The notes under the pieces were generated by a model. That model saw only the letters and a list, made by a program, of their open reading frames with translations. It searched no databases and was not told the origin of the DNA. Positions 25,231 to 62,187 of a stretch of DNA of 64,000 nucleotides are shown piece after piece. The DNA lies in assembly GCF_030464345.1 (NCBI RefSeq), contig NZ_VCYH01000003.1, forward strand, positions 62,001 to 126,000, written 5' to 3'. How positions within the stretch are numbered: position 1 is the first letter of the stretch; every line of letters begins with the position of its first letter. This stretch comes from Methanoculleus frigidifontis (GTDB taxonomy: Archaea; Halobacteriota; Methanomicrobia; Methanomicrobiales; Methanoculleaceae). Position numbers and translations under genes: made by a program.

Positions 25231-25607
25231 TGTTCATCTCCCCGCATCCGGTAGATGCAACGCCCCGAAACCGGTTCAGACGACAAATAGGTTGCGGTCG
25301 AAGGATCTCGATGCCGGATGGCGTGGTGGTATCCCGGGCACGTCCCGAACGTGTCTGCGGATGGAACGACCTGTCTCGATCGGCGCACCTTTCCCGTCCT
25401 GCCGGCAGGAACGATGTGCATCATAGGTAGAATCTGTGTGGGGTATTCCCGGGATGCAGATCCCCCAGCTCCCCTCACGTCCACCCGGTACAGGTACGAA
25501 CGGTCGTGGCGCATCCGGCGCAACAAAGAAGGCTTATTGGCATCGCTGCCGTACGCATACCAATAACCTGCCGGTCAGCCGTACCGGCATCGGGACGCAT
25601 CTCTTCC

Positions 25608-41969: not shown

Positions 41970-42803
41970 ATGTTCCTTGCATGCCACCTCTTTGCCGGGG
42001 TGCTGATCGGGGTTGTGCTCGCCGTTCATCTCCGGGACAGAAGGCTTCTTCTCTTCGCGGCGGCCGGTGCGCTCCTCCCGGACCTCATCGACAAGCCGCT
42101 CGGCCATATCGTCCTGCACGACTCCATCGATGACGGCCGCATCTTCATGCACGGACTTTTTCTCGCGCTCGTGCTCCTCTTCATCGGCCTCTATCTCTGG
42201 CGGCGGCGCGGGTCGTTCGCGGCCGGCGCCCTCGCGTGCGGCATCCTCTCCCACCAGATCCTCGATACGATGTGGGAGGTGCCCGTCAGCTGGTACTATC
42301 CGCTGCTCGGCCCCTATCAGCCGGGTGACTTCCCGGACTTCCTGGCGTTCGCCCTCTGGAGCGAGGTCGGTTCCCTCTCCGAGTGGGTCTTTGCCGCATC
42401 GTCCGCGATCGTCCTGCTGCTCGCTTTCCGGGAGACAGCGGAGGCGTATCTCGGCAGCCGGGCGGTCGCCCTCGCCGGCAGAGTTTTTCCGGCGGCACCG
42501 TTCCTCTCTGCGGGCATGGGAGCTGTCGCTCTCGGGCTCTTTGGTGCCGGGGTCGAGAGCGACCTTCTCATGGTCGGCGACTCGCCGCAGGCAAACCTGA
42601 TCCTCGCCCTGGCGGGCATCGGCGGAGCGGCGGTGCTCACCCGGTACCGCGATTCGGCGCCCCTGGCATGGTCAGGGGATCCGCGTCACCAGCTCGATCT
42701 GGTGCGGCAGGCGCCGCTCGACCCTGAGAGCGGCACCGGCGGCAGGCTTCATCTCGACGACGAACTCTCCATCGGCGACGAGATCGCTCGGGATGATCGG
42801 TGA
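41970..42803 (+). CDS. YdjM-type membrane protein (metal-dependent hydrolase family)
   Basis: The 277-residue protein has several membrane helices and the His/Asp pattern of YdjM-like proteins: HLFAGVLIG, LLPDLIDKPLGHIV, MHGLFLALVLL and GILSHQILDTMW. Function is unclear even for the family. Its last 44 codons (after RYRDSAPLA) lie on top of the convergent archaellin gene over 132 bp, and their sequence looks like the antisense of it. Its natural C-terminus may have been lost by a frameshift. Confidence 0.72.
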   Translation: MFLACHLFAGVLIGVVLAVHLRDRRLLLFAAAGALLPDLIDKPLGHIVLHDSIDDGRIFMHGLFLALVLLFIGLYLWRRRGSFAAGALACGILSHQILDTMWEVPVSWYYPLLGPYQPGDFPDFLAFALWSEVGSLSEWVFAASSAIVLLLAFRETAEAYLGSRAVALAGRVFPAAPFLSAGMGAVALGLFGAGVESDLLMVGDSPQANLILALAGIGGAAVLTRYRDSAPLAWSGDPRHQLDLVRQAPLDPESGTGGRLHLDDELSIGDEIARDDR

Positions 42804-43253
42804 GATATTGATCCGGAACGTCTCCCCGTCCTCAAGGATGGCATCCCCGTCACCGTTGAAGACCTCCTGGATGCTCCAGCGATTGGCGCGCGGGTTTACG
42901 TACATGAGCGGGTCTTCCGGTTCGAGCTCGCCGTAGTGGTTCCGGCTGAGAAACCGGACCGACATGGTGCTGACGTCGACCCCGTCGCCGCCCGCTGCGA
43001 TGCCGATCGGGATGAGCAATGCCTGAACCTGCACCCGGTTCGGACTGACACCGTAGATCGTCCCGGTGACGGTGAGGCTCGAACTGACCCCCTGCACCTC
43101 TGTATGGATGACCTTCTGGCTCTCCTGGATAGCAGAGAACCCGGTGCCGAGCACCATATACGAAAAGACCGAGGCGACGACGACAAATGCGATCAGGATG
43201 ATGGCAGCCTCAAGCCCGGTGAAGCCTCCGTCCCGGTTGCGCATCGCCATCAT
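42672..43253 (-). CDS. flaB: Archaellin (flagellin-like), first of two
   Basis: The 193-residue protein has a short charged leader ending DGG, then FTGLEAAIILIAFVVVASVF, the class III signal peptide and hydrophobic helix of archaellins. The mature protein would begin at the Phe after the DGG cleavage site. The remainder is a beta-rich domain ending KPAAGAALRVERRLP. It follows the second archaellin 7 bp downstream. Confidence 0.85.
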   Translation of the reverse strand: MMAMRNRDGGFTGLEAAIILIAFVVVASVFSYMVLGTGFSAIQESQKVIHTEVQGVSSSLTVTGTIYGVSPNRVQVQALLIPIGIAAGGDGVDVSTMSVRFLSRNHYGELEPEDPLMYVNPRANRWSIQEVFNGDGDAILEDGETFRINISPIIPSDLVADGEFVVEMKPAAGAALRVERRLPHQIELVTRIP

Positions 43254-43260
43254 CTCCCGT

Positions 43261-43851
43261 TCACATCAGTTCATAGTAGTCGCTCGCCGTGATCTCGGGC
43301 GGAGCCGTCCGCGTCAGGGCGAGGGCGCTGCCCGTATCGGCCGTCAGTTCGATGGTGAAGGTATCTCCTGCGCTGATATCGGCGTCGCGGACGTCGATGG
43401 TTATGCAGGCGAGCTCGTTCTCCTCCAGGATGTCGTCGCTGTCAGCCCGGTAGCGCCAGGTAACGGCGATCCGGGGATCGCCCGGGGGGATCGAGAGCAG
43501 GGTGTCTGCGAGGGCGATCCTGCAGTTGATCCTGGTCATATCCGTCCCGGTTCCTGCCCCGGCGGTCTGGAGGTAGATCCTTACCAGTTTTAATTCCGTG
43601 CCGAGGTTGTTTGCCTGGCAGGCGACCGTCCCCCCCAGGACAAGAGCATTTGCAGACTGGTCGATACCGGCGTGGATCACCTCCTGGCTCTTCTGGGTGG
43701 CAAAAAACCCGCTGCCGAGAACGGCGAAGGCAAAGACCGAGGCGACGACGATGAAGGCGATCAGGATGATCGCCGCTTCGAGGCCCGTGAAGCCGTCGTC
43801 GCATGCGGGGTGCCTGACCGCAGCGATCTCGTTGCTCTTCTTCGGTGCCAT
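43261..43851 (-). CDS. flaB: Archaellin (flagellin-like), second
   Basis: The 196-residue protein has leader ACDDG, then FTGLEAAIILIAFIVVASVF, then a beta domain with TADTGSALALTRTAP at the end. GGAGAT stands before ATG 43851. The two archaellins share the hydrophobic helix almost exactly but differ in the outer domain, so they may be major and minor subunits. The archaellum motor genes (flaHIJ) are not in the window. Confidence 0.87.
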   Translation of the reverse strand: MAPKKSNEIAAVRHPACDDGFTGLEAAIILIAFIVVASVFAFAVLGSGFFATQKSQEVIHAGIDQSANALVLGGTVACQANNLGTELKLVRIYLQTAGAGTGTDMTRINCRIALADTLLSIPPGDPRIAVTWRYRADSDDILEENELACITIDVRDADISAGDTFTIELTADTGSALALTRTAPPEITASDYYELM

Positions 43852-43870
43852 TCCAGTATCTCCTCTCTCG

Positions 43871-45595
43871 TTACCGGAGTTCTGCAAACTCCTGCTGCCC
43901 GGTTATGTGACGTGCGATGAACAGTGCATCGTACATAGTGATCCTGCCGTCCCCGGAGACATCTCCGGCGGGTTTGGTCATGTTCTCGTATCCCGGGACC
44001 CCGAGAAGGTGCCGCGCGAGGTACGCTGCATCGGCTATCGTCACGGTACCGTCCTCGTTCACGTCGCCGTTTCGGATCACCGTGACCGGAATCGTCGTCG
44101 TGTTCACGGTGCCGCGGATAGTGGTTATCGTCACGACAAGATTGCGGGACTGGTAGGTTCCGTTCATGAACGGAGACGGCAAAGCCGCTGAAACGTCGGT
44201 CGACCAGACGCCGTCGCCGGTGTTCGTCATCGGTGATGCCGCGGAGCCGCCGACGTCTGAGAGGTCGATGGTGGCGTTGCTGACGATCCATGCGTTCTCT
44301 GCCGTGAGTGTGATGGTCATCGCCTCTCCCCACCCCGGACTGCCGCCCATGGAAGCGGATATGACGGCCGGCACCGGCCGGGTCTCTATCGTAAATGAAG
44401 TCGGAGAGGCCCAGACGGCTTCTTCAGCGTCCACCCGCCCGAATCCGTAGGAGGAGTCCCGGCCGTCCTGGCCGAGGTCGTCGGCGGTTCCGGCCAGGAC
44501 TGTTCGGACGTTCTCGTTCGTCATTGCCGGGTACCGCGAGAGCACGAGGGCGGCAACGCCGGCAACATGGGGGCAGGCCATCGATGTTCCGCTCATGTAG
44601 CCGTAGGTATCTCCCGGGAGCGTGGCGAGGATCCGTTCGCCGGGCGCCACGAGCTCCTGTGCGCTGCCCTGGTTGGAAAAGCTGCTCAAGGCGCTTGTTT
44701 TTCCGATTGAGCCGATCGCGATGACGGAGTCGTATGCTGCCGGGTACAGGATCTCTGCACCGCCCCCGTTCCCGGAGGCCGCTACGATGATGCAGCCCTT
44801 GCTCCAGGCGTAGTCGCACGCCTCTTTCTGGGTCTGGGAGAAATATTCGCCTCCGAGACTGAGGCTGATGATATCCGCCCCGCTGTCGGCGGCATGGATG
44901 ATACCTTTTGCGACGTTCGAGATGTAGCCGCCTCCTTGGGCGTTGAGCACCTTCTCCGCCATGATGCCGACCTGCGCTACTCCGGCAATGCCCCGGTCAT
45001 TGTCCATGACCGCTGCGGCGATGCCAGCGCAGTGCGTGCCGTGCCCGTTGTCGTCCAGTGGGTCGGCATCATCGTTTACCCAGTCGTATCCGCCGGAGCG
45101 GTAATTTCCGGCAAGGTCGGCGTGGCGGTAGTCGATGCCGGTATCCACGATGGCGATGGTAATATTGCTGTTTCCCTGCTCCATGCTCCAGGCATCGTCC
45201 GCTCCGATGATTTCGAGACTCCACTGGTATGCATACATCGGATCGTCCGGCACGTACGGTGCGGGGCTGCACGCCGATACCGGGTAGTCGGGTTCGATGA
45301 ATGCCACGTTCTTCCGGGATGCCAGATCGGTGACGAACCGGTCGACGTCGTCGACCGAGAATTCCTGTATGGTGAGGTGATCGCAGGTAGCGACGAGTGC
45401 GGTATCGGAGACACCTTCCGGGAGTGGCAGTGCTGTTCTCTGCATGGGTGCGGAGCCGATCCGGTTGTCAAAACCAACAAGCACCCGCTGGTTGTCTTCG
45501 GCACTGTCGCTCCGCGATGCGGCGTGGGCAGCGGGGAGCAGGATAAATCCTGCGAGAAGCGTCAGTACACAGAGTCGCTGCATGAGAGTAGTCAT
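43871..45595 (-). CDS. Secreted subtilisin-like serine protease with C-terminal dockerin
   Basis: The 574-residue protein has a signal peptide to about Ala26, a prodomain region (about 35-105) and an S8 catalytic domain. The catalytic residues are Asp151 (AIVDTGIDYRHAD), His185 (DDNGHGTHCAG), Asn276 (AASGNGGGA) and Ser338 (SGTSMACPHVAG). A beta domain (about 405-500) precedes the dockerin (about 505-570), with Ca-binding repeats GDVNEDGTVTIADAAYLAR and GDVSGDGRITMYDALFIAR. It may be docked on surface cohesins. GGAG lies 10 bases before the ATG. Confidence 0.93.
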   Translation of the reverse strand: MTTLMQRLCVLTLLAGFILLPAAHAASRSDSAEDNQRVLVGFDNRIGSAPMQRTALPLPEGVSDTALVATCDHLTIQEFSVDDVDRFVTDLASRKNVAFIEPDYPVSACSPAPYVPDDPMYAYQWSLEIIGADDAWSMEQGNSNITIAIVDTGIDYRHADLAGNYRSGGYDWVNDDADPLDDNGHGTHCAGIAAAVMDNDRGIAGVAQVGIMAEKVLNAQGGGYISNVAKGIIHAADSGADIISLSLGGEYFSQTQKEACDYAWSKGCIIVAASGNGGGAEILYPAAYDSVIAIGSIGKTSALSSFSNQGSAQELVAPGERILATLPGDTYGYMSGTSMACPHVAGVAALVLSRYPAMTNENVRTVLAGTADDLGQDGRDSSYGFGRVDAEEAVWASPTSFTIETRPVPAVISASMGGSPGWGEAMTITLTAENAWIVSNATIDLSDVGGSAASPMTNTGDGVWSTDVSAALPSPFMNGTYQSRNLVVTITTIRGTVNTTTIPVTVIRNGDVNEDGTVTIADAAYLARHLLGVPGYENMTKPAGDVSGDGRITMYDALFIARHITGQQEFAELR

Positions 45596-45644
45596 TGTGG
45601 TGCTCCGGAAGGCGTGCTTTGGTATACTGTCATTTTGGAAGTTG

Positions 45645-45654
45645 GATATATAAT
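45645..45654 (-). promoter_or_regulatory. TATA box for the dockerin subtilase
   Basis: On the minus strand ATTATATATC lies about 50 bases before ATG 45595. Confidence 0.6.
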
Positions 45655-45689
45655 AGTTCCTTTATTGCGGTCGAACCAATTATTTCATT

Positions 45690-45720
45690 AAAATAAAAAA
45701 GAGCTGTTTTTCATAGCTCT
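45690..45720 (-). terminator. Hairpin and T-run terminator
   Basis: On the minus strand AGAGCT-ATGAAAAAC-AGCTCT (45720-45700) is followed at once by TTTTTTATTTT. It lies about 340 bases after the stop of the cohesin protein at 46064. The 45721-46063 interval between the two has no convincing frame; long ORFs there look like chance. Confidence 0.65.
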
Positions 45721-46063
45721 CTGGCGGGGGGCTGGAGGTGGGAAATATCTCGCACCCCCCGCATCGGTTCGTCTTCTATCCGGGGTAACCGGAAGGCGCA
45801 TCTCCTCTTGCAGACGTACGCTGCCGTGCCCTTGATCGTACCTGACGATGGACATTTCGGGTGTTCTCCGCACCTCCCGGCATGCCTTGAATTGTGTTCC
45901 CCTCTCTGCTGATCGGTGACGGGTGCGGCTTTGAGAACCGTCTGTGATTGCTGTTTTGGGGAGCGGAGTGCGGAGAGGTTCGCTCAAAGTGCACGGTCGT
46001 TCGCGGAACGGGTACGAGTGGCCGGAGGCCGGGATGAAAACAGAAAAAAGTATGGATTCGGGG

Positions 46064-49000
46064 TTACTGGTTCTTCTTCTCCATGTAGAAGAAGGCTGCT
46101 CCCGCAACGATCAGGATCGCGACGATCGCGATGATGATATACATGAACGGGAGTTCTTCCGTTGGCTGTGCCGGCGTGGTCGGAGCAACCTGCGTCGGGC
46201 TGGTCGTCACGACCTCTGTCGGGGTGGGCGTCGGCAGGACGCCGGTGGTGTAGACGACCGCGAACGTACTGAAGTGCGTGACGGTTGCGCTCACCGTTCT
46301 GGTCGTCGGGTTGACCGTGGTCGGGACATCCTCCCAGGCATTGGTCTCTGCGTTGAACCACTTGATCGTCGGCACCTGGCCGCTTGCGATCATCCGGTTC
46401 CAGTCCTCCTCAGAGAGGGTGGCGGAGAGCGTGAGGCCCGGGTTGAAGGTGGCGCCTGCAGGGCTGCACTCATAGACGTAGCCGGAGATGCTGAAGAGCG
46501 CGCCTGCCGGGGCTGCCGGGACGTCGCCGGTCCGCTCGATGCTGATGGTGCTGATCGGGTTGCCGTCCGCGTCGAGTGCCCGCACGCCCGCGTTCAGGGT
46601 GAGTTTCCCGCTATCGTCACTCGCAACGACGGCGATCGACCGGGTCACGATACCGCTGCTGCTGGTCGAGACCGTGGCGCTTCCTTCGTAGGTGGTAACG
46701 CTACGGCTGCTGCCGCCACCGCCACCGCCGCCGCTGGGCGTGTACGGGGTCGGAGTTGGGGTCGGGGTCACCGGGGGCGTGATCTGAACCGTGTACTGAC
46801 CGTAGGCCTCCACGGTTCCGTTGGAACTCTGGCCGATCAGGTAGACGTCATACGTTCCTGCGGCGAGGCCGGACGTGTTCACCGTGGCCTGGTTCGTGTT
46901 CGCTACGACGTAGGCTCCGGCGTCGGGGCTGATGTAGACATTCCCGATGAGTTTCTGGGTCGCGGGGATGCCGTTGTAGGTGAGGTTCAGCTGGAGCGTC
47001 GAGGTGCCGATGGTTGCTGCGTCGATGAGCGCCGTGCCGTCGTAGGTGACGTCACGGATCAGCATGACACCGAGGCGCTCGCACGGGGCGGTGAACTGCG
47101 CCGTGAAACTGTCTCCCTTCTGCACGCTCGTGGCGGAGATGCCGCCCTGGTCGCCGCTCTCCATAACGCTGATCGGCATTGCGCCGAGAGCGCCGAGGCG
47201 GTCGCCGTCCATGGCGATGGCGGCGAGTGCGTAGTCACCTGCGGGGAGCTGGATGGCTTTGAGACCCTGGGCACTCAGCCGGTAGCCGGCGTTCAGGTCG
47301 ACCTGGTTGTCCGGGTGCCGGAGTGTCTGGGAGATATTGCCTGCGTTGGTGATGGCCGTTCCGTTATAGTCGTCCATGATGAAGGTACCGTCGTCACGCA
47401 CGGTGATCTTCGTCCACCCACCGTCGATGAAGAAGTATGCGGTCTTCTTCATGAGTTCGGTGTAGTTGACGGATCTGCTGCCGGAGTCGATCATCTGTTC
47501 GATGTACGACTCGTTGGCCTCGAAGAGCAGGACTGCTGCCTTCGGGGCGTTGGGCACCTGCACCAGGAAGTCGAGCGTTGCACCGGGTTCGTAGACCCAG
47601 AGGTTCTGGTAGGTCTCGGTTCCCTGCATGGTGCGGTTTGCGGTGTTGTCGACCGCTACGAAGGTGTCGGCGGTGACCTGGCCGACGTTGATGACCGACC
47701 GCTGCAGCGTGCCGATGCTCGGGACGGCGACGGTGCGCCCGTTGTAGAGAGTGACCGAGCTGATCGCGGTTCTGCTGATGTCCATCTCTGCGGTGTAGGT
47801 GGTATCGATGCCGGATATCGTGCCCATCTTGGTGGAGTTAATCCAGATCATGTAGTTGTAGTAGAGATGGAAGGTGCGGCTGTCGGAGTTGAGCGCCTGG
47901 TCGTAGGCGCGGAACGCAAGGTCGCGGTTACCGTCGGTGATGGTGGTTGTTGCGGTTCCGCTGATATCGTTGCTGCTCCAGAGTTCCTCGCCCGTGGTGG
48001 TGTCCACGAGGACGACGCGTGCAAAGGACGGGTCGGCCGCGACGTTCCAGTTCAGGGTGAGCGTCTCGCCCGCTTCGACGTAGCCGTCACCGTCGTCGCC
48101 GCTGATCGTGAACGCGGTGATCACCGGTGCGGTGGTATCGAGCGTGAACGTCCAGTTCAGGGAGCGCGGATCGCCGAAGTTGTCCGTACCGCTGGCGTTC
48201 ACCCAGTAGGTGTTGTCTGCAAGCGGGCCGACGATCGTTCCCTTCGCGTAATCGGTCGAGGTGTCGACCGCAAGGGGGACGGGGGCGGAGGTTGCCGTAC
48301 CGAACTGCATACCGACGGTCCCTTTGTTCATCTGGGACATGAACGCCGATGCCTGGGTCGGTGTGGCGTTGACGTAGCCTGTCGGGCTCGGGTCGGAGAA
48401 TCCGACGTTCACGACGTTGATGACCTGGGTGTCGGTTCCCTGCCTCCCGGCCGCATCGGTTGCCGTGACGATGAGGTCAACGCCGTTCTCAATCGGCCAG
48501 GTGACCTGCGTGTTGAAGGTGTAGGTGCTGGCGCCGGTCTGTGTCAGCGGAAGGTTGTACTGGACGGTGTCGGTCGTGTTCTGCAGGGTCGCCGTGGCGG
48601 TGCCCATGCCGCCGACGTCGGTGATGGTGCCGGCGATGTTGAACGTGGACGATACGCTCGTGGGTGTGGAGATCGAGACGACCGGGTCGACTTCATCCAG
48701 GGTGGTGAAGGTGCCGTTCTGGATGGCTGCCGTAAGAATATCTCCCGGGGGGACAACCGTTGAGAGGGTGTTTAATTTCATCCCGAGTTCCGACTGGCTG
48801 CCGTCGTTTTTCAATGCAGAAAGCGTCACCGTGGCAAGCAGAAGGTCGCCGTTGTCGTATCCGCCTGCATTGAAGCCGTTCACGAGAATGTGATCGGCGA
48901 ACGTGTTGGAGTTCGATGCATTGTACTTCTGGATACTGTCCACCGATACGACGGTGTTGTCGAAGTACATCTCAACATTAAACGCTCCGATCTTCGGACT

Positions 49001-49162
49001 GAAGTCGTTCGCGATATAGATACTGACCGTAGCCGTGCTTCCCTGTTGTACATCGGAGGCATTGGTTACGTATAATGTGCCAGTACCTGTTGCCGCGCTT
49101 GCAGCGGGCGTAATGGCCAAAAGCCCTACTACGAGCAGCAGGGCTAGATGAAGAGATTTCAT
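46064..49162 (-). CDS. Membrane-anchored cohesin protein, 1032 residues
   Basis: A signal peptide (to about Ala23) precedes a cohesin-like domain (about 25-150; GTLYVTNASDVQQGSTATVS, then GAFNVEMYFDNTVVSVD, then GDLLLATVTLSALKNDGSQS). Ig-like modules follow (about 155-450), then a long beta region of no recognised family, a Thr/Pro spacer (TPTPTPTPYTPSGG) and a beta module ending VTHFSTFAVVYTTG. A Thr/Pro stem and C-terminal helix (FMYIIIAIVAILIVAGAAFF) with tail MEKKNQ anchor it. It has no dockerin. It is the likely scaffold for dockerin proteins. Confidence 0.83.
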   Translation of the reverse strand: MKSLHLALLLVVGLLAITPAASAATGTGTLYVTNASDVQQGSTATVSIYIANDFSPKIGAFNVEMYFDNTVVSVDSIQKYNASNSNTFADHILVNGFNAGGYDNGDLLLATVTLSALKNDGSQSELGMKLNTLSTVVPPGDILTAAIQNGTFTTLDEVDPVVSISTPTSVSSTFNIAGTITDVGGMGTATATLQNTTDTVQYNLPLTQTGASTYTFNTQVTWPIENGVDLIVTATDAAGRQGTDTQVINVVNVGFSDPSPTGYVNATPTQASAFMSQMNKGTVGMQFGTATSAPVPLAVDTSTDYAKGTIVGPLADNTYWVNASGTDNFGDPRSLNWTFTLDTTAPVITAFTISGDDGDGYVEAGETLTLNWNVAADPSFARVVLVDTTTGEELWSSNDISGTATTTITDGNRDLAFRAYDQALNSDSRTFHLYYNYMIWINSTKMGTISGIDTTYTAEMDISRTAISSVTLYNGRTVAVPSIGTLQRSVINVGQVTADTFVAVDNTANRTMQGTETYQNLWVYEPGATLDFLVQVPNAPKAAVLLFEANESYIEQMIDSGSRSVNYTELMKKTAYFFIDGGWTKITVRDDGTFIMDDYNGTAITNAGNISQTLRHPDNQVDLNAGYRLSAQGLKAIQLPAGDYALAAIAMDGDRLGALGAMPISVMESGDQGGISATSVQKGDSFTAQFTAPCERLGVMLIRDVTYDGTALIDAATIGTSTLQLNLTYNGIPATQKLIGNVYISPDAGAYVVANTNQATVNTSGLAAGTYDVYLIGQSSNGTVEAYGQYTVQITPPVTPTPTPTPYTPSGGGGGGGSSRSVTTYEGSATVSTSSSGIVTRSIAVVASDDSGKLTLNAGVRALDADGNPISTISIERTGDVPAAPAGALFSISGYVYECSPAGATFNPGLTLSATLSEEDWNRMIASGQVPTIKWFNAETNAWEDVPTTVNPTTRTVSATVTHFSTFAVVYTTGVLPTPTPTEVVTTSPTQVAPTTPAQPTEELPFMYIIIAIVAILIVAGAAFFYMEKKNQ

Positions 49163-49197
49163 GAAGTTTTCCCTCCTTTGCTAATCATATTTCATGC

Positions 49198-49206
49198 CGT
49201 ATAAAT
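49198..49206 (-). promoter_or_regulatory. TATA box for the 1032-residue cohesin protein
   Basis: On the minus strand ATTTATACG is about 40 bases before ATG 49162. GGAGGG lies close to the ATG. Confidence 0.6.
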
Positions 49207-49223
49207 CATTCGTAATTGAATTT

Positions 49224-49943
49224 TCACCGTTTTTTCGTGAATGCAAATACTACAAGCACCAGCGCGCAAATTCCGATGATGGGTGACAGCGGTGACTTGG
49301 GTGTTGGTGCCGGTGTCGGCGTCTCTGGTGTTCCGGTGACAGTTCCGGTTGTGCCGGCAGCGGGTGATTCTGATGCCGCCGTCTGCTGCACTCCGGCTGT
49401 TGTCGGCGTCGGTTCGGCCTCTTGCAGGGTTGCAGTGGCCTGCGGTTCATTCGGCTGCGACCCGCCGCTCGATGATCCGGTTCCCGAAGCGGTCGTCGGC
49501 ACTGCCGTCGGCTGCGCTCCCGGGGAGGCGGGTGTGTCCGTGTCGAAGGCCGGGTTCGTCGTCGGGATCGGATCGCCGAGCGGGTTCACCAGATCGTTCA
49601 CATAGACATCGAAACGGGCGTCGCCTGTGTACTGTATCTCTGCGACGGGGACGTCGCCGGTGAGGTGCTGTTCGGTCGTGAACCCGGAAACCCTCACTGT
49701 CTTCTTGTCCTGCTGGATGTTGACTGCGCCCATGAACGGTTCGACGAACGTTACGTCCGTCACGGTGGTCGCTGCCGTATCGTAGCCGATCACGATGCTG
49801 AAGGCGCCAAGGCCGAGGCTGTCATCGACGCCTTTCACGACCAGCTGGCCTTCCGCGACCACGACTTCGGCGGCGCTTGCCGCAGATACCATTGCGCAGA
49901 GAATTGCGATGCCAAAAAGAAAACGGAAATGGGGTTTGTTCAT
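49224..49943 (-). CDS. Small membrane-anchored cohesin protein, 239 residues
   Basis: A signal peptide (to about Ala24) is followed by a minimal cohesin-like domain (about 25-115; VVVAEGQLVVKGVDDSLGLG, then AFSIVIGYDTAATTVTDVTF, then GDVPVAEIQYTGDARFDVYV). A long Thr/Pro/Ser linker (about 125-215) leads to a C-terminal helix (IIGICALVLVVFAF) and a KKR tail. It has no dockerin. It is the simplest candidate anchor. GAGGT stands before the start. The alpha-2-macroglobulin-like gene ends 10 bp before it. Confidence 0.8.
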   Translation of the reverse strand: MNKPHFRFLFGIAILCAMVSAASAAEVVVAEGQLVVKGVDDSLGLGAFSIVIGYDTAATTVTDVTFVEPFMGAVNIQQDKKTVRVSGFTTEQHLTGDVPVAEIQYTGDARFDVYVNDLVNPLGDPIPTTNPAFDTDTPASPGAQPTAVPTTASGTGSSSGGSQPNEPQATATLQEAEPTPTTAGVQQTAASESPAAGTTGTVTGTPETPTPAPTPKSPLSPIIGICALVLVVFAFTKKR

Positions 49944-49953
49944 GTGCTATACC

Positions 49954-52900: not shown

Positions 52901-53757
52901 CCGGCCTGTACCTTGGACCACGGCCCGTAGACGTAGCCGTTGGTGTACTCGAGCGTGTAGTCGACAACCGTGATGCCTTTTGCATCAGTTGTTTTTCCGC
53001 CGATCGAGTCGTCGCTTGTCACGGTGATGACGGCGCGGTAGCGCCCGGTCTGAGCCGGCGTCCACGCAATCCTGTCAGTGAAGCTGCCCCATGCGGGGAT
53101 CACCTCATCGTTGTAGGTCCACGAGTCGACCGAGGCGTTTGTTTCATCAAGGATCTCGACGCTGATGTCGAGCGGGGAAGTTGCGGTGCCCCTCTGGTTT
53201 GTGACCGATGCGACGAGGGTGTTCTCCTGATCGAGGAGCATCCGGTTCGATACGACACCGATGGTGGAGTAGACGACATTATGTTTCAGTGTCGTGATGG
53301 AGGCGTTGGTGATGCCGGAGACCGGGATGTCCTCACCCGACGTGGAGTTCAAGAACCCGTAGTTGTTGACGATGAGCGTGACGGGTGTCGTTCTGCCCGT
53401 GTCGTCGACGGCGGTGAACGTCGCGGTGAAGAGCGTTGCGTCGCCGTTGATGCCGTCAAGGGTGCTGTTCACACCGGCGACCCGTATTCTTCCGCTCTGT
53501 CTGTTCACCTCAATGCTGTTTACCAGGGCTCCTTTCGTTACGTTGTCGGGTGCACTGCTGAGTGCGACGATCTGGGGGTTCCAGCGGAGATCGATATCGA
53601 ACCCGCCGAGATTGCTGACATCTGCCGCAGTAACCGCAAGATTCACGGTTTGCCCATAGGCGCAGGTGCTGCTCGCCGGATCAACCGAGAGCGTGGCAGC
53701 CGAACCGACGCCGCAGAGGAAGGTGAGGAGCAGAATGCTCCACACAATATGTTTCAT
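49954..53757 (-). CDS. Alpha-2-macroglobulin-like thioester protein with N-terminal cohesin and C-terminal dockerin
   Basis: The 1267-residue secreted protein (signal peptide to about Ala20) starts with a cohesin-like domain (about 21-155; LSVDPASSTCAYGQTVNLAV, then LGGFDIDLRWNPQIVALSS). A macroglobulin-type region follows, then a thioester helical domain (about 415-730). The motif Gly433-Cys434-Val-Glu-Gln437 (PYGCVEQTTSRM) is the thioester site of A2M/complement proteins. The domain has helix repeats with QNIDGSW and QNADGSW, as in the alpha/alpha barrels. Later beta domains end in a dockerin with two nearly equal repeats (NNDGSVNIIDALYIASYDA and DVTGDGVINIIDALYVASYD). Confidence 0.85.
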   Translation of the reverse strand: MKHIVWSILLLTFLCGVGSAATLSVDPASSTCAYGQTVNLAVTAADVSNLGGFDIDLRWNPQIVALSSAPDNVTKGALVNSIEVNRQSGRIRVAGVNSTLDGINGDATLFTATFTAVDDTGRTTPVTLIVNNYGFLNSTSGEDIPVSGITNASITTLKHNVVYSTIGVVSNRMLLDQENTLVASVTNQRGTATSPLDISVEILDETNASVDSWTYNDEVIPAWGSFTDRIAWTPAQTGRYRAVITVTSDDSIGGKTTDAKGITVVDYTLEYTNGYVYGPWSKVQAGNWFSMRFYVNASHAGNIWLNITAPDYVEVNGGRNQSRYMYASQWNYVRVYMRTDRPGTIDADQFRFDIAAHGKSDTVNGTDVSIWIPSIEVTSVDATTINASAPGAMTFNTLHTNRTFDNRTDIIIQSGARGRTLSGLEYLVGYPYGCVEQTTSRMMASLNVKNYYLDRPADRPSNWQTIRDTANTSIERGITSLVKGGQRGQHADGGWSLWGSGSSESSSSSYASYTLARINKTDEDLNRLLVDKVSNGSTVTSGTVNFEKLIEWFHDNPDNPSTGTWTWSANVCHSWTPQSNTAFVMLIHDMINQTADVQQPYRGYMEENMQNATRYFIDTQNIDGSWSSGQDQAMATGLALWGLESFALTSDDVTAEEIENAKAKAAVWLIDTQNADGSWPAGSHYGWYTNGRVTEATAYGVLALNATGIPADNTTISRAVGWLVSQYEDRGSWGYTWASQVAIDALIQCQPNVVSTGTVTVAIDGTDVCTVPVNSTHPRVVYTLTEAQEEALLAGGTLKRDIFGDGFSTVKEHDVTATLTSGDGPILVSVDHSQHVPIIEVDATIRNGRTIQEFGDETGSDLVQISTDIGVLDYAAQAENPYTVGFASSPSPMVAGEEADVTLTVTSTQDVFSPMVEIPISGFAYDNASTVYENGQAVASEVTNSTASTDQLSLFIEPLAWVNNTLMTYTFTATPDTYGALEMNLRIRPLYDESQVTFANHTFTVQGRGNVSVNVVDENGDAVTADRISVGASSVTAVSNHTFEDVLEGTYSMVVNKTGYPEIHSNVNVTPGATALYNVTLPSTLTAPVLVLSEGGSGSIAGVAQVPPETLNALRNENTSYNVTVLGNGGELGIALEFPMRYLLHDPVVTVNGVPTAYEFRNGTFTYPVGGAYTTTNATLVIYDAPNGQNTIGLGFEGVSLGESNNDGSVNIIDALYIASYDAQLITGLATYDYPDVTGDGVINIIDALYVASYDAGLLTEYYQPVA

Positions 53758-53782
53758 TTCTTTTCTCCTCCTTTTGCCTCAC

Positions 53783-56700
53783 TTAAAGTATTCGGAAGTA
53801 CGCATCTCTCAGGTCGGCGTTGTACTGTGCGATGAACATCGCATCTCCGACTTCGATGGCACTGTTGCCGGTGACGTCGGTCTGGAAGAACCGCGTTGTT
53901 CCTGCCGTGGGTTTCCCGATGAGGCCGACCACTTCACGCAGGACGTGCAGGGTATCGAGCTGGTTGACCTCCCCGTCGTTGTTCGCATCGCCGTAGAGAA
54001 GCAGGTCGGCGTTGCCGTTCGTGACCTCGACCGGGATCTCGAATTCGTTTGCATCCCAGAGCCGTGCGGTCAGGTTCAGATCGGTCTCATCGCCGCTCGC
54101 CCCGATCACGCTGATACGGATGGTGGCGACGGTGACGGTGCCGCTGACGCCTGCAGTCGCTGCGCCGTTGAAGACTGCGCTGCCGGAACCGATGTTCTGG
54201 GCGGTGACCGGCAGTGCTCCCGGACTGATGCTCTGCACCTCGACGACGGAGCCGTCGAAGGTGAAGGCCATCTGGTAGGCGGCGAGATCGGTGACGTTAT
54301 CGACGACTATTGGGAGGTCATAGGTGGTCCCGGGAACCAGCACACGGTCCTGGGGCAGCCTGATGTGCGTCAGGGTGTGTGCATACGAGTTGACGGTGAG
54401 GTTCGCCACGTTGTTCTCGTAGGTCGTCTCGTAGTCGGTGGCGTGGTTCGGGTTGACCTCCGCCTCGATCAGGTATGCACCGCCGACGAGTGTCTGGTTG
54501 CGCCAGACCGTCGTCGATGCTCCGGATCCGAGGGCCGGGACGGTGATGGTCTCGTCCGGGGTTCCGGTGATGCCGTAGATCAGGGTGGTTGCCTCACTGC
54601 CGACTTCGCCGAGGTTTGTCACTTTGAGCCCTATCTGCGTCGTGCTGAAGGGTGTGGTGACCTGCGGGGCAAGGATGTCGACCTTGAGGTCAGGTGCCGT
54701 GATCCGGACCGGATGGACGATCCGGTTGTTCAGGTAGTTCAGTTCCTCCACCTGCCGGTCGGAGTTGACGGTGATCCCGACGTCGATGTCCACCGGGAGC
54801 CGGTAGTCGCTCGTGTTGATGCCGAAATCAGCGGCATTGCGGGCGATCGTCGTGGCGAGGACGGTCTTAGTCTCCCCGACGGCGAGGTTCTTCTGGAAGT
54901 AGGTGGTCTCGTTGTGGCTGCCGGCCTCCGCCGTGCATTTCACGCCGGGGTCGGCGTAGGTGTAGCCGGCCGTTCCGACGTTGCTGATCGTCAGGACGAC
55001 GTCACGCACCGTGACGACGTCATTCCTCTCGAGTTTTACGACGTGCGGGGCGGAGACGCCGGGGTAGAAGTCAGGCAGCTGCTGCTCGGTGACCGAGAAG
55101 GAGCCGTAATCCGACTGGACGATCTCGCCGTTGTGGAAGCAGGTGACGGTGTAGGGGACGGATGTTCGGTCAGCGAGGGACTTTCGAAGCGCCTGCTGGG
55201 ATGCCGTCGGTGCGGTGAACGTGAGGGTCACCTTGCCGGTGGCGTCCGTGTAGCCGGTCAGGATGCCGGTGTAGGGATCCGGATACCAGCCGGTTGCCGT
55301 CAGGATATTGTAGTCACGTGGATCGCCCGAAGGCCAGATCCAATCTTCGTCCGCCGCCGCTCCCAGTTTCAGCACGACCCGGGCGCCGCTCAGTGCCGCT
55401 CCGGCATCGGTTGATGCGTTGAACGTCACCGGCACCGCAGTTCCGGCGCCGATGTTCTGGCCGAGAGTGTAGGAGACGGATCTGTCCGGGTTATGGAACG
55501 AGCTGTAGAGCGAGTAGCTTCTGCCCCCCTGGCTGGTCGGGTCGAGGAGAACGTACCTGGTCTGGTACCAGCCTTCGTGACCGGGTGTCGCCGATTCGGT
55601 GTGCGTTCCGGTGAAGCCGACGACGGCGGCTTTCTCGGTCCCGCCGAGATACCAGAAGTCATTCTCCGACTGCCTGTCGCACGCGAAGTAGCCTTTCTCC
55701 TGGATTTCGGTGCCGTCGGGCCCGTAGCTGGATGCCGTCACCGCGTAGGACGCACCCGTCCGCTCGATCTCGACCGAGCGTTCGGCCGAGTCGGGATACA
55801 GGTTTCCGGTCGCGATCGGGGCGCCCAGCCTGGCTGCGACCAGTCCTGCTCCGACACGTGACCTGTCATCTACTGAGAACGGTGTACCTCCTATATAGCC
55901 GTGGAACCCCCCGTCGATCCCGTCCGTGACCAGCAGGTACGGGAGCTGCTCATCCTGTCCGGTCACGTCGACCGTGAACGTGTACATGCCGCTCGCGTTG
56001 GTCACGCCGGTCTGCACGCCGTTCTGGGTGTACAGGTATACCGTCTGGTCGGCTGCCGGTTCTTCGGTCTGGGCGGCAGGGTCGTACTCGTAGCCATATG
56101 CGGTGATGAACGCCGCATCTCCGGGCACCGTTGTGTAGGCGATCTGGTCCCAGGTCGCCGGCCAGGTGCCGGTGCTCCAGAGCCACGTCATCGTCCGGTT
56201 GAGGTCTTCCTCGACTGCCGGCGGTGTGCTGCGGTGCAGGAGCCAGGGTTCGAGCGTTCCGTAGACGAGTGCGGTTTGCTCCTCGGTGTACTCCATGTAC
56301 CCGTCGTCCGAGACGAACCTGACGATCGCGATGTAGCCGTTCTCCGGCATCGTGAGATCCTCAAAGAGGCCGAGGCCGTTCGTCATGGTGACGGTGCCGG
56401 TGTACGTGCTCGGCTTCATCGCGTCGATCTCCTCAAGCAGAGCCGCCATGTCGGCAACCTCACCGGTGGTGAGGGTTTCGGCATTGCCGGCAGAGAGCGA
56501 GAGCACGTCCGTCTCCGTCAGCGTGGTGACGTAGACGTCGAAGTCCTTGCTGACAGTCGTGCCCCCATGGTGCGGGAAGGCCATGACACCGATATCGATG
56601 CTCATGCCGGGCGGGCAGATCGCCCGCTCCGGGGTGACCACGCTCTCCTGATAGCTGTGCGGTTCAGTATCGATGTAGATGTTCCCTGCCTGTCGGTCGT

Positions 56701-59056
56701 TGATGTAGATGGAGAGAGATGAGTCACCGACATCCGTCTCGGCAAGGTCGAGGGAGTAGGCGATGACGCCGTTCTCCGGCACGAAGGTTTCACTGACGAT
56801 GGTCTCCGACCAGTTGCTGATTGTGAACGCAACGCTCTCGGTGTATGCCGACCCGTCGGCGTTCAGCAGCGGGTACTTGATCTCGACCGTGTCGTTCGCG
56901 TTCACCGAGTAGGTGTTCCGGTCGAAGATCGGCACGGTCGCCGGTGTCGGCGTGGGTGCCGTGTACTTGTAGAAGCTGTCCGTCACCTCGCGGCCGTCCC
57001 AGGTGATGGAGATCGAGCAGGATCTGCCCGTGGGGACGTTCGCGATGTCGATCAGGGCGATAACGCTGCCGTTCTCATCGGTTGTGCCGGTCTGGTTGAT
57101 GTAGACGGTCTGGTAGTACGGATAAGAGCCGGTTGAGTACCGAACACTGAAATTGACATCCTCGCCGATGATGGGCGTTCCTGCGGTCGTGTTCCAGAGG
57201 ACCGCGAGAAGCGGAAGCGTGTCGCCAGAGCCCGAGGACGGGGCGAGCGATCCGCCGAAGAGCTCTCTGATGATGCCGTCCGACGGTTCGCTGCCGCCGA
57301 GGCCGCCGGTTCTGTTCACCGCTTCATAGGCGTTGATCCTTCCGGCACCGTAGGCGTTGTTCGGCTGCATGACCGCCTGGATAGCGCCGTCTTCGGCGAT
57401 GTGGACGGCGGTCTGCATCATGGCGCTCTTCACGTCGGCCGGGGTGAGCGAGCTGTTGCCCGAGAGCATCAGTGCTGCAGTGCCGGCCACGGCCGGGCAG
57501 GCCATCGAGGTGCCGTCCATGACGGCGTATTTGTTGCCCGGGTAGGCGGAGATGACGCCGACACCGGGAGCCATCACATCAGGCTTGATGTACGGGGTGC
57601 TCCGGTTCACCGGACCCATGCTGCTGAAGGCCGCCCGGTAGTCCATCAGGTACTCGGTAGCACCGACGGTGATGATATCGGCGGCGGTTCCGGGAGTGCC
57701 GACGGTGGACGTGCCGTAGTAGCCGTTGTTGCCGGCCGAAGCGGCCACGATGACGCCGCCGGCGACGACGTTGTTGATCGCCGTGTCCTCAAGCGTAGTC
57801 CCGTCGGACTGGTAGTACTCGGTAAGCCTGATCCCCAGGACGTCCACGTCCGTCGAACCGTTGTTCTTCACGCTGATCTCCCAGTTGCCGTTCCAGCTGC
57901 CGGTGTTGGAGGCGTAGGGCGCCTTGAAGTAGAAGCGGTCGTCCGGCTGGTCGAACCCGAGCCAGTCGATGACCTCACCCGAGGCCGTGTTGCCGTTGGC
58001 ATCCTTCACCGTGATGGTGAGGTTCTGGAGATCGCCGGCGTCGTAGACCTGAACCCTGCCGATGACGAACTGCGGTTCGTACAGGTAGCCGGTATCGCCG
58101 TATTTCTCGGACGAAACCTCAAGGGTTACGACCTCGGTCTCGTTTGCGGTGAGCGTGGTTTGCAGAGCCTCGTTCATGCGGTAGGGATAGCTTCCGAGAC
58201 TCATGGAGATGACATCGGCTCCGTTCTCGACCGCCCACTGGACGCCGCTCAGCACCGCGCTGGTCGACCCTGAGCCTGCGGCGTTCAGGACCTTTGCTCC
58301 CATCAGGTCGGCTTCGGGCGCGATACCCAGTGTAACGTCGATCTCACCCGCGTAGTTGGTAGTGGTGACCGTTCCGCCTGCAGCCGTCCCGGCACAGTGC
58401 GTGCCGTGGCCGTTGTCGTCGTATGCCGTTGCGTTGTCGCCGTTGACGAAGTCGGCGAAGGCTACGATGCGGTCACCGAATGCGGGGTGGCTGCCGTCGA
58501 TACCGGTGTCGATGACCGCGATCGTGACGCCGTCACCCACGTTCCCGGTATCCCAGACCGAGGGGGCTTCGATGTAGTCCGCACTCCAGACAACCGAGGT
58601 CTCATAGGTACCCGGACGCTTGATGGAATCGGGGTCTATCGTGGCAGAGACGTCGACGACCGGGTCATATGCCGTGACCACGAGGTCGGGCTCGATGCGG
58701 GCGACACCCGGGATGGCTGCATAGCTCTCGAGCGCTGCCGGATCGGCTTCGATCCAGATGGCGTTGGCGATCCAGTAGGTTGTTGCCGAGTCGAAAGCCT
58801 CGGCATCGATCGTTCTGATCGACTGGAGCACCTGTGTCTGCTGGCTGGTCACATCGGCCTTGAGCTGGGCGAACGATGTGAACTGCTGCGGCTGTTCCTC
58901 GAGAACCAGAAATACCGGTATCCGCTCTCCGTCTTGCAGAGTGGGTGGATCCGGCATGATGAACCGGTTGTCGAATGGCAGGGCAGCTGCTGTGCCCGCC
59001 ATAAGGAGTACAATAAGCAGGACGAGGAGCCCTGCTTGCAGATTCGATAGTCTCAT
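53783..59056 (-). CDS. Giant secreted subtilase with cohesin and dockerin modules
   Basis: The product is about 1757 residues. A signal peptide (to about residue 26) and propeptide precede an S8 catalytic domain: Asp183 (AVIDTGIDGSHP), His217 (DDNGHGTHCAG) and Ser517 (DGTSMACPAVAG). A beta-sandwich of about 135 residues (about 290-427) is inserted between His and Ser. Many beta domains follow, with CARDB-like repeats (about 1365-1565), a cohesin-like domain (about 1570-1690) and a terminal dockerin (GDANNDGEVNQLDTLHVLR, DVTGNSAIEVGDAMFIAQYN). ATG 59056 is preferred because AGGTG precedes it; GTG 59065 is possible. The following gene starts 25 bp downstream. Confidence 0.9.
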   Translation of the reverse strand: MRLSNLQAGLLVLLIVLLMAGTAAALPFDNRFIMPDPPTLQDGERIPVFLVLEEQPQQFTSFAQLKADVTSQQTQVLQSIRTIDAEAFDSATTYWIANAIWIEADPAALESYAAIPGVARIEPDLVVTAYDPVVDVSATIDPDSIKRPGTYETSVVWSADYIEAPSVWDTGNVGDGVTIAVIDTGIDGSHPAFGDRIVAFADFVNGDNATAYDDNGHGTHCAGTAAGGTVTTTNYAGEIDVTLGIAPEADLMGAKVLNAAGSGSTSAVLSGVQWAVENGADVISMSLGSYPYRMNEALQTTLTANETEVVTLEVSSEKYGDTGYLYEPQFVIGRVQVYDAGDLQNLTITVKDANGNTASGEVIDWLGFDQPDDRFYFKAPYASNTGSWNGNWEISVKNNGSTDVDVLGIRLTEYYQSDGTTLEDTAINNVVAGGVIVAASAGNNGYYGTSTVGTPGTAADIITVGATEYLMDYRAAFSSMGPVNRSTPYIKPDVMAPGVGVISAYPGNKYAVMDGTSMACPAVAGTAALMLSGNSSLTPADVKSAMMQTAVHIAEDGAIQAVMQPNNAYGAGRINAYEAVNRTGGLGGSEPSDGIIRELFGGSLAPSSGSGDTLPLLAVLWNTTAGTPIIGEDVNFSVRYSTGSYPYYQTVYINQTGTTDENGSVIALIDIANVPTGRSCSISITWDGREVTDSFYKYTAPTPTPATVPIFDRNTYSVNANDTVEIKYPLLNADGSAYTESVAFTISNWSETIVSETFVPENGVIAYSLDLAETDVGDSSLSIYINDRQAGNIYIDTEPHSYQESVVTPERAICPPGMSIDIGVMAFPHHGGTTVSKDFDVYVTTLTETDVLSLSAGNAETLTTGEVADMAALLEEIDAMKPSTYTGTVTMTNGLGLFEDLTMPENGYIAIVRFVSDDGYMEYTEEQTALVYGTLEPWLLHRSTPPAVEEDLNRTMTWLWSTGTWPATWDQIAYTTVPGDAAFITAYGYEYDPAAQTEEPAADQTVYLYTQNGVQTGVTNASGMYTFTVDVTGQDEQLPYLLVTDGIDGGFHGYIGGTPFSVDDRSRVGAGLVAARLGAPIATGNLYPDSAERSVEIERTGASYAVTASSYGPDGTEIQEKGYFACDRQSENDFWYLGGTEKAAVVGFTGTHTESATPGHEGWYQTRYVLLDPTSQGGRSYSLYSSFHNPDRSVSYTLGQNIGAGTAVPVTFNASTDAGAALSGARVVLKLGAAADEDWIWPSGDPRDYNILTATGWYPDPYTGILTGYTDATGKVTLTFTAPTASQQALRKSLADRTSVPYTVTCFHNGEIVQSDYGSFSVTEQQLPDFYPGVSAPHVVKLERNDVVTVRDVVLTISNVGTAGYTYADPGVKCTAEAGSHNETTYFQKNLAVGETKTVLATTIARNAADFGINTSDYRLPVDIDVGITVNSDRQVEELNYLNNRIVHPVRITAPDLKVDILAPQVTTPFSTTQIGLKVTNLGEVGSEATTLIYGITGTPDETITVPALGSGASTTVWRNQTLVGGAYLIEAEVNPNHATDYETTYENNVANLTVNSYAHTLTHIRLPQDRVLVPGTTYDLPIVVDNVTDLAAYQMAFTFDGSVVEVQSISPGALPVTAQNIGSGSAVFNGAATAGVSGTVTVATIRISVIGASGDETDLNLTARLWDANEFEIPVEVTNGNADLLLYGDANNDGEVNQLDTLHVLREVVGLIGKPTAGTTRFFQTDVTGNSAIEVGDAMFIAQYNADLRDAYFRIL

Positions 59057-59416
59057 ACGAAACACCTGAAAACGTTAAACAATAGGTTAGATCTGTACTA
59101 TGACTAATAAGAGTATGCATTCTCGAAGAATCCGATGTGCTGATTTTTCAAAAAAACGGGGAAAATAAATCGATCCTTTCCAGTAATATTGTCTGAATAA
59201 TATATTAATGGAATAAATTTTTCCAGAATGCGGTAATTTCTGTCTGGATGGGGAAACAATCGGTAATGGGGTCTATAAATCCTTAAAATCCTCGTATAAT
59301 CAGATAAAAACGGGAAAAAGGCTTTCCGATATGGGTTCCTGACAGCATGTTCCCATTCTGGCAGTTTGCGCGAGCCTGATGTCGGAATACGGCCCGGAAA
59401 AGTATTTTCAACCTTT
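59057..59416. other. AT-rich intergenic region, 360 bp
   Basis: This stretch is AT-rich and has no coding frame. It holds the promoter of the giant subtilase on the minus strand and the end of the transcript from the PKD protein. AATATATTAATGG near 59198-59210 is a possible TATA box, but no site was fixed. Confidence 0.5.
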
Positions 59417-60439
59417 TCACGTGCCGGCCAGACCGAACCACGGGTTGCGGAGCCCGACGTTGCGCTGTGCGATGTACATCGCATCGCCGATATCGATGGC
59501 TCCGTTGAAGGTCACGTCGCTTCTGAGGAATGAAACCGTGCCTGCTGTGGGTTTTGCCGTGAGATCGACCACCTCACGCAGGACATGGAGGGTGTCGAGC
59601 TGGTTGACGTCCCCGTCACCGTTCGCATCGCCGTACAGCACCGAAAGGACGCTGATGAACCTCTCTTCCGTATGTGTCGCCTGACCGAACTCATTCGATG
59701 CGGTCAGGGTGACCGTGAAGTTGCCTTCCCGGGTATAGGTGTGCTCCGGGTTCCGGACGGCGCTGGTTGCGCCGTCCCCGAAGTTCCAGAGCCAGCCCGT
59801 CGGCGTGCCGGCCGACGTGTCCGAGAACCGGACCGCGAGCGGAACCAGGCCTGCCGTCTCATTGGCGGTGAACGACGGCACCGGCGGTGTATCGCCGGGC
59901 GAGAGTATCCGGACGTTCCCACTGACCGTTTCTGCCGGGATCTCCGTTCCGGCCGCTGTTGCCTCCATCATCTCGAGCACCTCGACCGTGAGCGGCGATA
60001 TGTCGCCTGCCGATCCGGCACCGGAGAATGCTACGCTGCAGACGGCGACCGTGCCGTCAAGACCCGGTTCTCCGAGCTGGTATGCGCCGATGGCCACAAA
60101 TCCTCCGGAAGTATTGATGTTTGCGATCGGCCCGGACTCAAAATCTCCGCCATCGACCGAGGTGGCGAGAACTACGGCGGGGTCGTATCTGAGGACGAGC
60201 CATACGCTGCCAAGGTTCGTGACGTCCGCAACGGTGATCGTGGTCGTTCCCGATGCGTTCTGCTGGAGGGTCAGGTTTCCTGCCGTTACCGTCGGCTGGG
60301 CTGATGCGGCGGTCAGCAGGAGAGAGAAGGTGAGTACGGCGATGAGTACTCTGGCAGTGAGACGTATCCCGGCATCTCCGGCATGCGGCTGCGTTGCTGG
60401 CGGGGAGAGGTGCGATATCGCTACTGGCTTTCCGGACAT
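59417..60439 (-). CDS. Secreted cohesin-PKD-dockerin protein
   Basis: The product is about 340 residues. A long N-terminal leader with a hydrophobic core (VLIAVLTFSLLLTAASAQPT) is followed by a cohesin-like domain (about 40-170; LTLQQNASGTTTITVADVTN, then VWLVLRYDPAVVLATSVDGG). A PKD domain (about 175-260; GLVPLAVRFSDTSAGTPTGW, then WNFGDGATSAVRNPEHTYTR) and a dockerin (about 268-330; GDANGDGDVNQLDTLHVLRE, DVTFNGAIDIGDAMYIAQRN) follow. The dockerin is almost the same as that of the giant subtilase. Confidence 0.88.
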   Translation of the reverse strand: MSGKPVAISHLSPPATQPHAGDAGIRLTARVLIAVLTFSLLLTAASAQPTVTAGNLTLQQNASGTTTITVADVTNLGSVWLVLRYDPAVVLATSVDGGDFESGPIANINTSGGFVAIGAYQLGEPGLDGTVAVCSVAFSGAGSAGDISPLTVEVLEMMEATAAGTEIPAETVSGNVRILSPGDTPPVPSFTANETAGLVPLAVRFSDTSAGTPTGWLWNFGDGATSAVRNPEHTYTREGNFTVTLTASNEFGQATHTEERFISVLSVLYGDANGDGDVNQLDTLHVLREVVDLTAKPTAGTVSFLRSDVTFNGAIDIGDAMYIAQRNVGLRNPWFGLAGT

Positions 60440-61975: not shown

Positions 61976-62187
61976 CCGTTCCATCTTTTTTGGCATCCGC
62001 CTCAGCAAGTATCCGGGTAGCGCCTTGCGATACGACAGATCGCCCAGGTTCGGCATGTACCAAAATGCGGTATCCGTGCCGGATCGATACAAATCGACTG
62101 CTCACTTCCTTTTTGAAAACAGTGCATACGCCGCAGAACGAACGACGAGATATCTTTTTATTTGATCACCCGTTATGAGATAACTGA

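Follow-up and report, generated by a model that had tools for sequence, protein, structure and literature searches.

The genes H, G, F, E, D, C, B and A, so lettered from position 60439 down to position 42672, all lie on the minus strand of the window (the whole stretch of Methanoculleus frigidifontis DNA analysed here, 64,000 nucleotides), and every open reading frame that a first-pass annotation had listed for them is present at its coordinates. H (59417-60439) encodes a secreted protein of 340 aa made up of a cohesin (59903-60298, placed by Pfam and ortholog comparison), a PKD domain (PKD_4, 63.9 bits) and a dockerin (59420-59635). G (53783-59056; 1757 aa) carries an S8 subtilase domain (approximate limits 57332-58609; Peptidase_S8, 179 bits), a CARDB domain (32.6 bits), a cohesin (53996-54379) and a dockerin (53786-53995). 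The dockerins of H and G, identified with Pfam, are of an asymmetric type that we call alpha; comparison with orthologs shows that of G to be conserved. F (49954-53757; 1267 aa) consists of a cohesin (53284-53697), a thioester core resembling alpha-2-macroglobulin (A2M) and a dockerin (49957-50166) that, judged against its orthologs, is two-fold symmetric (beta type) and divergent between species. E (49224-49943; 239 aa) is minimal, with a cohesin (49542-49871), a Thr/Pro linker and a C-terminal transmembrane anchor, seen as a hydrophobic segment in the family alignment. D (46064-49162; 1032 aa) has an N-terminal cohesin (48692-49087), a long ectodomain and a C-terminal transmembrane anchor (FMYIIIAIVAILIVAGAAFFYMEKK). 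C (43871-45595; 574 aa) is an S8 subtilase (206.7 bits) with a dockerin of a gamma type; it is an associated gene outside the conserved G-F-E-D cassette and is found also in a congener, G080. Adjoining C is B (43261-43887), which like A (42672-43253) is archaellin- or pilin-like (Arch_flagellin, 87.7 and 95.2 bits, respectively). The range of 42672-60439 first assigned to the system also spans these two genes (42672-43887), neither of which encodes a cohesin or dockerin protein.

The first-pass annotation had proposed four proteins with C-terminal dockerins and five with cohesin-like domains, and both sets were borne out. The dockerins of C, F, G and H score 50.4, 26.4, 24.1 and 24.7 bits against a Pfam cut-off of 22.9, and each contains two calcium-loop-like repeats, with Glu in place of Asp at position 1 of loop 1 in the F dockerin. 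Two of the dockerin proteins are subtilases (C and G), one is A2M-like (F) and one has a PKD domain (H), as had been read from the letters. The C6 dockerin-like proteins (DLNGNGRLDFADVV) were put aside, as they score under the Pfam cut-off. A genome-wide search for cohesins (PF00963, cut-off 24.1 bits) returned F at 31.2, G at 24.5, H at 20.5 and D at 17.0 bits, with no match for E; G is borderline, falling to 23.2 bits in a whole-protein scan, and a second Pfam score for H, 18.6 bits, is also below the cut-off. These four are the only Pfam-detectable cohesins in the 3.17 Mb genome and all lie in the cluster, whereas dockerins occur at about fourteen places. The calls for D and H were made through orthologs and profiles; the D ortholog in genome G062 passes the cut-off with 26.0 bits. 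The profile of the F cohesin matches cohesin structures, and that of the G cohesin has as its top PDB match 2xdh, an Archaeoglobus cohesin (E-value 2.4e-5). For E, an AlphaFold2 model of 110 residues, built from an alignment of 16 orthologous E domains, is all-beta with a pLDDT of 95.9, and every one of its top 45 PDB matches by Foldseek is a cohesin or a cohesin-dockerin complex, with 2xdh among them (TM-score 0.64, normalised to the query). Profile comparison of E with the G cohesin gave a probability of 84 and an E-value of 7e-6. On this predicted fold, E is a cohesin. A transmembrane segment closes both D and E, and neither has a dockerin, as the first-pass annotation had said in likening them to scaffolds. 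The scaffold label did not hold: they are single-cohesin anchors, and it is F, G and H, with a single cohesin and a single dockerin apiece, that have the make-up of adaptors. No multi-cohesin protein was detected by Pfam in the genome, and one was found in the relatives, among the F' proteins described below.

We found the order and strand of G-F-E-D kept in 17 of 232 genomes of the order, spread over 6 genera. Full-length relatives of F occur in 16 genomes other than that of the window and all 16 have the cassette, so the locus is not a chance arrangement. The named carriers belong to Methanoculleus, Methanogenium and Methanofollis; a scan of named genomes gave chiefly distant bacterial proteins with a thioester domain (TED) and just eight cassette loci. 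The catalytic Asp, His and Ser motifs of G (DTGID, GHGTHCAG and GTSMACP) are kept in all orthologs that have the domain, that is, in all but G031, where the protein at the G position has cohesin-like modules and no subtilase; the protease is thus not obligatory. Eight further genomes have a divergent thioester protein related to F, F', of about 1,700-1,990 aa and with up to two Pfam cohesin matches. A D-like gene (D') adjoins it in all four F' loci examined, and an E-like gene (E') was recognised in two. F and F' were not seen together in any genome, an exclusion that would be expected by chance at such counts. In the congener G080 the F' set sits between shared flanks, with C, B and A at one end and J (82%) and K (72%) at the opposite end, which looks like an exchange of the core at an unchanged position. 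Viral contigs yielded no relative of F and hence no hint of a phage origin.

The dockerins of the cassette fall into two classes. Within one F protein the two dockerin halves are 69% identical, compared with 36% across proteins and about 40% between orthologs (permutation p 5e-5); the positions that change in concert include loop positions 9-11, 14, 15, 17, 18, 20, 21 and 23. Judged by sequence, the F dockerin has the two-fold symmetry that is a feature of dual binding modes, and the F' dockerins likewise look symmetric. The halves of the G dockerin are 21% alike, and each half is 77-80% conserved between species. Binding in two orientations is known for symmetric dockerins; in Ruminococcus flavefaciens such dual-mode dockerins are used for attachment to the cell surface, and their asymmetric counterparts for integrating enzymes (PMC5301203).

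The alpha dockerin extends beyond the cluster, to four other large secreted proteins encoded elsewhere in the window genome: two beta-helix/PKD proteins (one with a partial subtilase domain), one GLUG/PEGA/PKD protein and one triple-PKD protein. Across the order, 12 of the 17 genomes with the cassette also have alpha dockerins outside it (36 copies, all on secreted proteins unlinked to the cassette), versus 5 of the 215 genomes that lack the cassette (6 copies; Fisher 9e-13); the association is partly phylogenetic, the same clades holding both. Clients in relatives include papain-lectin, subtilase-PKD, Kelch and NHL proteins. Scans of 4 dockerin proteins from the cluster, 7 from other parts of the genome and 9 from relatives showed no glycoside hydrolase or cellulose-binding module. 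These data bear on the suggestion that the modules play no part in assembly, being either vestiges or simple Ig-like adhesive domains. That would suit the cohesins of H, D and E, which score under the Pfam cut-off, and the degenerate or lengthened calcium loops in several orthologous F dockerins (L028, L029 and L030); but the cohesin fold of E, the conservation of the cassette, the concerted dockerin halves and the reuse of the alpha dockerin on many clients make it very improbable.

Candidate partners of each dockerin were sought by co-variation, using 11-16 independent sequences per test from related species. With background divergence removed (partial Mantel, 15 genomes), variation in the F dockerin parallels that in the D cohesin (0.74) and the E cohesin (0.75; both p 0.0002), whereas the F and G cohesins show no such relation (-0.26 and -0.31, respectively). 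When 60-residue windows were taken across the whole cassette, its signal was highest at E 61-120 and D 61-120. One plug type is common to the window genome and three Methanofollis genomes, against the background tree, so that about three to four switches are needed; the dockerin, E and D trees concur on this split. The sister genomes L042 and L043 are 80-86% identical over F 21-1150 and 17% identical in the F dockerin; across the F dockerin, E and the D cohesin their identity is 17-37%, as it is in D 1-158, and it returns to 66-79% beyond D residue 158. A joint tract of about 1.6 kb (48689-50310 in the window: the F dockerin, the whole of E and the D cohesin) differs as a unit in this pair, in L038/L039 and between the window and L028.

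The contiguity of these modules means that exchange of the whole block could by itself yield the overall correlation: a hypervariable DNA segment would recombine, and the F dockerin and the E and D cohesins need not bind one another, an account to which the variation of the modules as a single tract lends weight. The test was therefore rerun without the switched genomes and with finer windows. Among the 11-12 genomes with the commoner plug (type 2), the F dockerin still tracks the D cohesin (0.60, p 0.0003; jackknife 0.47-0.73; 0.61, p 0.0007 without L043) but not the E cohesin (0.24, not significant; -0.08 without L043), even though E is encoded between the two; linkage alone is thus insufficient. 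The signal is flat at D 159-240, and one non-cohesin window, D 240-320, correlates too (0.47). A linkage-only account therefore fits E and fails for D, and with tract edges near module edges and dockerin halves that vary in concert, we consider hitch-hiking unlikely. On these sequence comparisons, an F-D pairing is better supported than an F-E pairing.

The wiring of the other modules is suggested less directly. The G dockerin shows a weak relation to the F cohesin (0.36, p 0.015) and none to the G cohesin (0.01), which weakly favours the F cohesin as its partner. The H cohesin is closest (39%) to an anchored cohesin in G080 that adjoins subtilase C there, and H may accordingly be a candidate socket for C. 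The order proposed below would be wrong if the wiring were different, with the F dockerin binding proteins encoded beyond the cluster, or with G and H forming polymers by pairing their own cohesins and dockerins. Cohesin and dockerin do occur together on both G and F, the G dockerin-F cohesin correlation is weak, and self-recognition is known for ScaH of R. flavefaciens (PMC5301203). However, the F dockerin does not co-vary with the F or G cohesin, and the genome's Pfam-detectable cohesins all lie within the cluster, so that we regard such rewiring as rather unlikely.

Computation shows how the modules fold, that the cassette is conserved and that modules co-vary; from this we infer an assembly in which F would bind physically to D and E, clients would dock and the chain could be extended. 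The first-pass annotation had already proposed a cohesin-dockerin complex that is anchored in the membrane, non-cellulolytic and made up of proteases and a thioester protein, and this proposal gains support here from gene content, cassette conservation, predicted folds and the co-variation of the F dockerin with the anchored cohesins. In our model, which we think probable as a whole, the chain would run from the membrane through D and E to F and from F to G and other clients (proteases and adhesins), with two orthogonal kinds of plug, a swapped, private F-D/E interface and thioester capture. The anchors D and E would cross the membrane, each displaying one cohesin; the symmetric F dockerin would plug into D, the best-supported step, and probably into E. 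The N-terminal cohesin of F, that of G or both would take the asymmetric dockerins of G, H and other clients, among them beta-helix, PKD, propeller and peptidase proteins encoded elsewhere. Through their own cohesins G and H could lengthen the chain, with H as a candidate socket for C. The F-D/E interface would have diversified by one-block swaps of dockerin and cohesins, leaving the plug private to each lineage.

The least certain step concerns F itself. Its TED (PF07678, 37.9 bits against a cut-off of 22.0; Pfam, model and Foldseek place this alpha/alpha toroid at 51478-52545) carries the thioester motif YPYGCVEQ (52447-52470), unchanged in 17 of 17 orthologs. The best 50 Foldseek matches of the central region are all A2M, C3, C5, TEP1 or CD109 proteins, bacterial A2M included (E-values 1e-26 to 1e-19); human CD109, complement C3 and A2M are among the top ones. 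On its model the centre of F is in the complement/alpha-2-macroglobulin superfamily, and since the model has a moderate pLDDT of 72 only this superfamily assignment was used. CD109 is anchored at the cell surface. Unlike these human proteins, F has a much shorter Ig/MG part before the TED, about 240 residues separating cohesin and TED, and a dockerin as its tether; in this model the bait region and most MG domains were not recognised, and no MG domain exceeds its Pfam cut-off (MG2, 17.0 bits against 32.8). The F thioester would probably bond covalently to an amine or hydroxyl on a target, in which case the complex would capture and cleave protein-containing targets beside the cell.

Within the same assembly, F might instead be a docked regulator or inhibitor that traps or restrains subtilases, either its own G and C or foreign ones. 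Relatives of A2M are protease traps, F is coupled with subtilase G in nearly all cassettes, and cellulosomal serpins that inhibit subtilisin-like proteases have been described (PMC12484212), a comparable control of proteases having been proposed for the dockerin-bearing serpins of cellulosomes. Against this stand the bait region and full MG ring, neither of which was recognised, and the retention of F in G031 beside a G-position protein without a protease. We judge such a regulator possible and the most credible of the alternatives, if still improbable overall. Covalent capture near docked proteases remains our first choice for the role of the thioester, with control of subtilases as its main rival. 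More speculatively, and as a doubtful extension of covalent capture, the complex could be a membrane-tethered archaeal analogue of complement. The thioester protein, activated or accompanied by a docked subtilase, would then tag targets covalently at the cell surface, on a lineage-private anchor swapped by recombination.

Several of the component parts are already known: archaeal cohesin-dockerin binding pairs (PMC9705933), many such modules in ANME archaea (PMC9012536) and archaeal thioester proteins (PMC8416519). In Archaeoglobus, AfuCoh76 and AfuDoc75 are reported to bind strongly and specifically (PMC9705933), and the A. fulgidus pair ORF2375/ORF2376, the source of 2xdh, resembles the present system in being archaeal and non-cellulolytic, with dockerin and cohesin on consecutive ORF numbers. 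It differs in being a single described pair, the account of which includes neither a protease-thioester cassette nor a second class of plug nor an interface that is swapped. The ANME proteins are likewise archaeal surface proteins joined by such modules, some of them multi-cohesin scaffoldins; in the parts of that source available to us, the clients are ABC binding and S-layer proteins, no thioester protein is mentioned and no pairing evidence is given (PMC9012536). The R. flavefaciens cellulosome shares symmetric anchor dockerins, asymmetric client dockerins, single-cohesin adaptors and dockerin-bearing peptidases, and it has dockerin-bearing serpins as well; it is bacterial and cellulolytic and has multi-cohesin scaffoldins and glycoside hydrolases, neither of which were found in the window cluster (PMC5301203). 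The archaeal A2M/TEP homologs have a TED with CxEQ, are secreted, lie in surface-protein neighbourhoods and have a proposed complement-like role (PMC8416519); that paper uses neither the term cohesin nor the term subtilisin, whereas F is flanked by a cohesin and a dockerin in an anchor-subtilase cassette. In the full-text literature searched, which mostly leaves aside subscription journals, no paper combines macroglobulin, dockerin and cohesin, and a complement-family thioester protein and a protease in one predicted surface chain were not found.

The cassette bears on why non-cellulolytic archaea have cohesins and dockerins, a question that has stood since Archaeoglobus. It offers specific pairings that can be tested, together with a natural experiment in the close relatives whose plug and socket have been switched together, and it supplies candidate orthogonal cohesin-dockerin pairs for protein engineering. 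The joint swapping of anchor plug and socket among related species points to a real, diversifying assembly.

At the locus of the congener G080, a divergent F'-E'-D' core (L044 5482-15414) lies where the window has H-G-F-E-D (46064-60439), that is, the secreted cohesin-PKD-dockerin protein H, the cohesin- and dockerin-bearing subtilase G, the thioester protein F and the cohesin-bearing membrane anchors E and D. The flanks of this core match those of the window, with J and K on one side and C, B and A on the other. In the window, the subtilase-dockerin gene C stands ahead of, and overlaps, two archaellin/pilin-like genes, B and A (42672-45595); the set is found again in G080, where an inserted gene for an anchored cohesin separates C from B. 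On the opposite side (60704-63922), the divergent neighbour I, the DUF1616 membrane protein J and the protein K remain close to the cassette in several genera; a weak PGF-CTERM tail is possible in I. Elsewhere in the window, one protein (25506-27806) is a fusion of Peripla_BP_6 with PnrA/Bmp, periplasmic binding domains of two kinds. Two SBP_bac_3 solute-binding genes (29753-30544 and 34161-34949), separated by about 4 kb, are oppositely oriented.

The G-position protein of genome G031 (L041:12492-15254, 920 aa) lacks the subtilase and has cohesin-like modules at its start. In G000, three secreted proteins (L127, G000:C6:188596-193031) terminate in near-identical dockerin-like repeats (EDLNGNGRLDFADVVVYF ... 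DYNGNGRIDFNDIVVLF), which score under the Pfam cut-off and are possibly another kind of EF-hand tail.

The F' proteins, represented in G080 by the thioester protein at L044:9484-15414, have two Pfam cohesins, additional cohesin-like stretches, CARDB-like repeats, a TED that contains GCPEQ, and a dockerin that looks symmetric. Judged by module content, they look like thioester scaffoldins.
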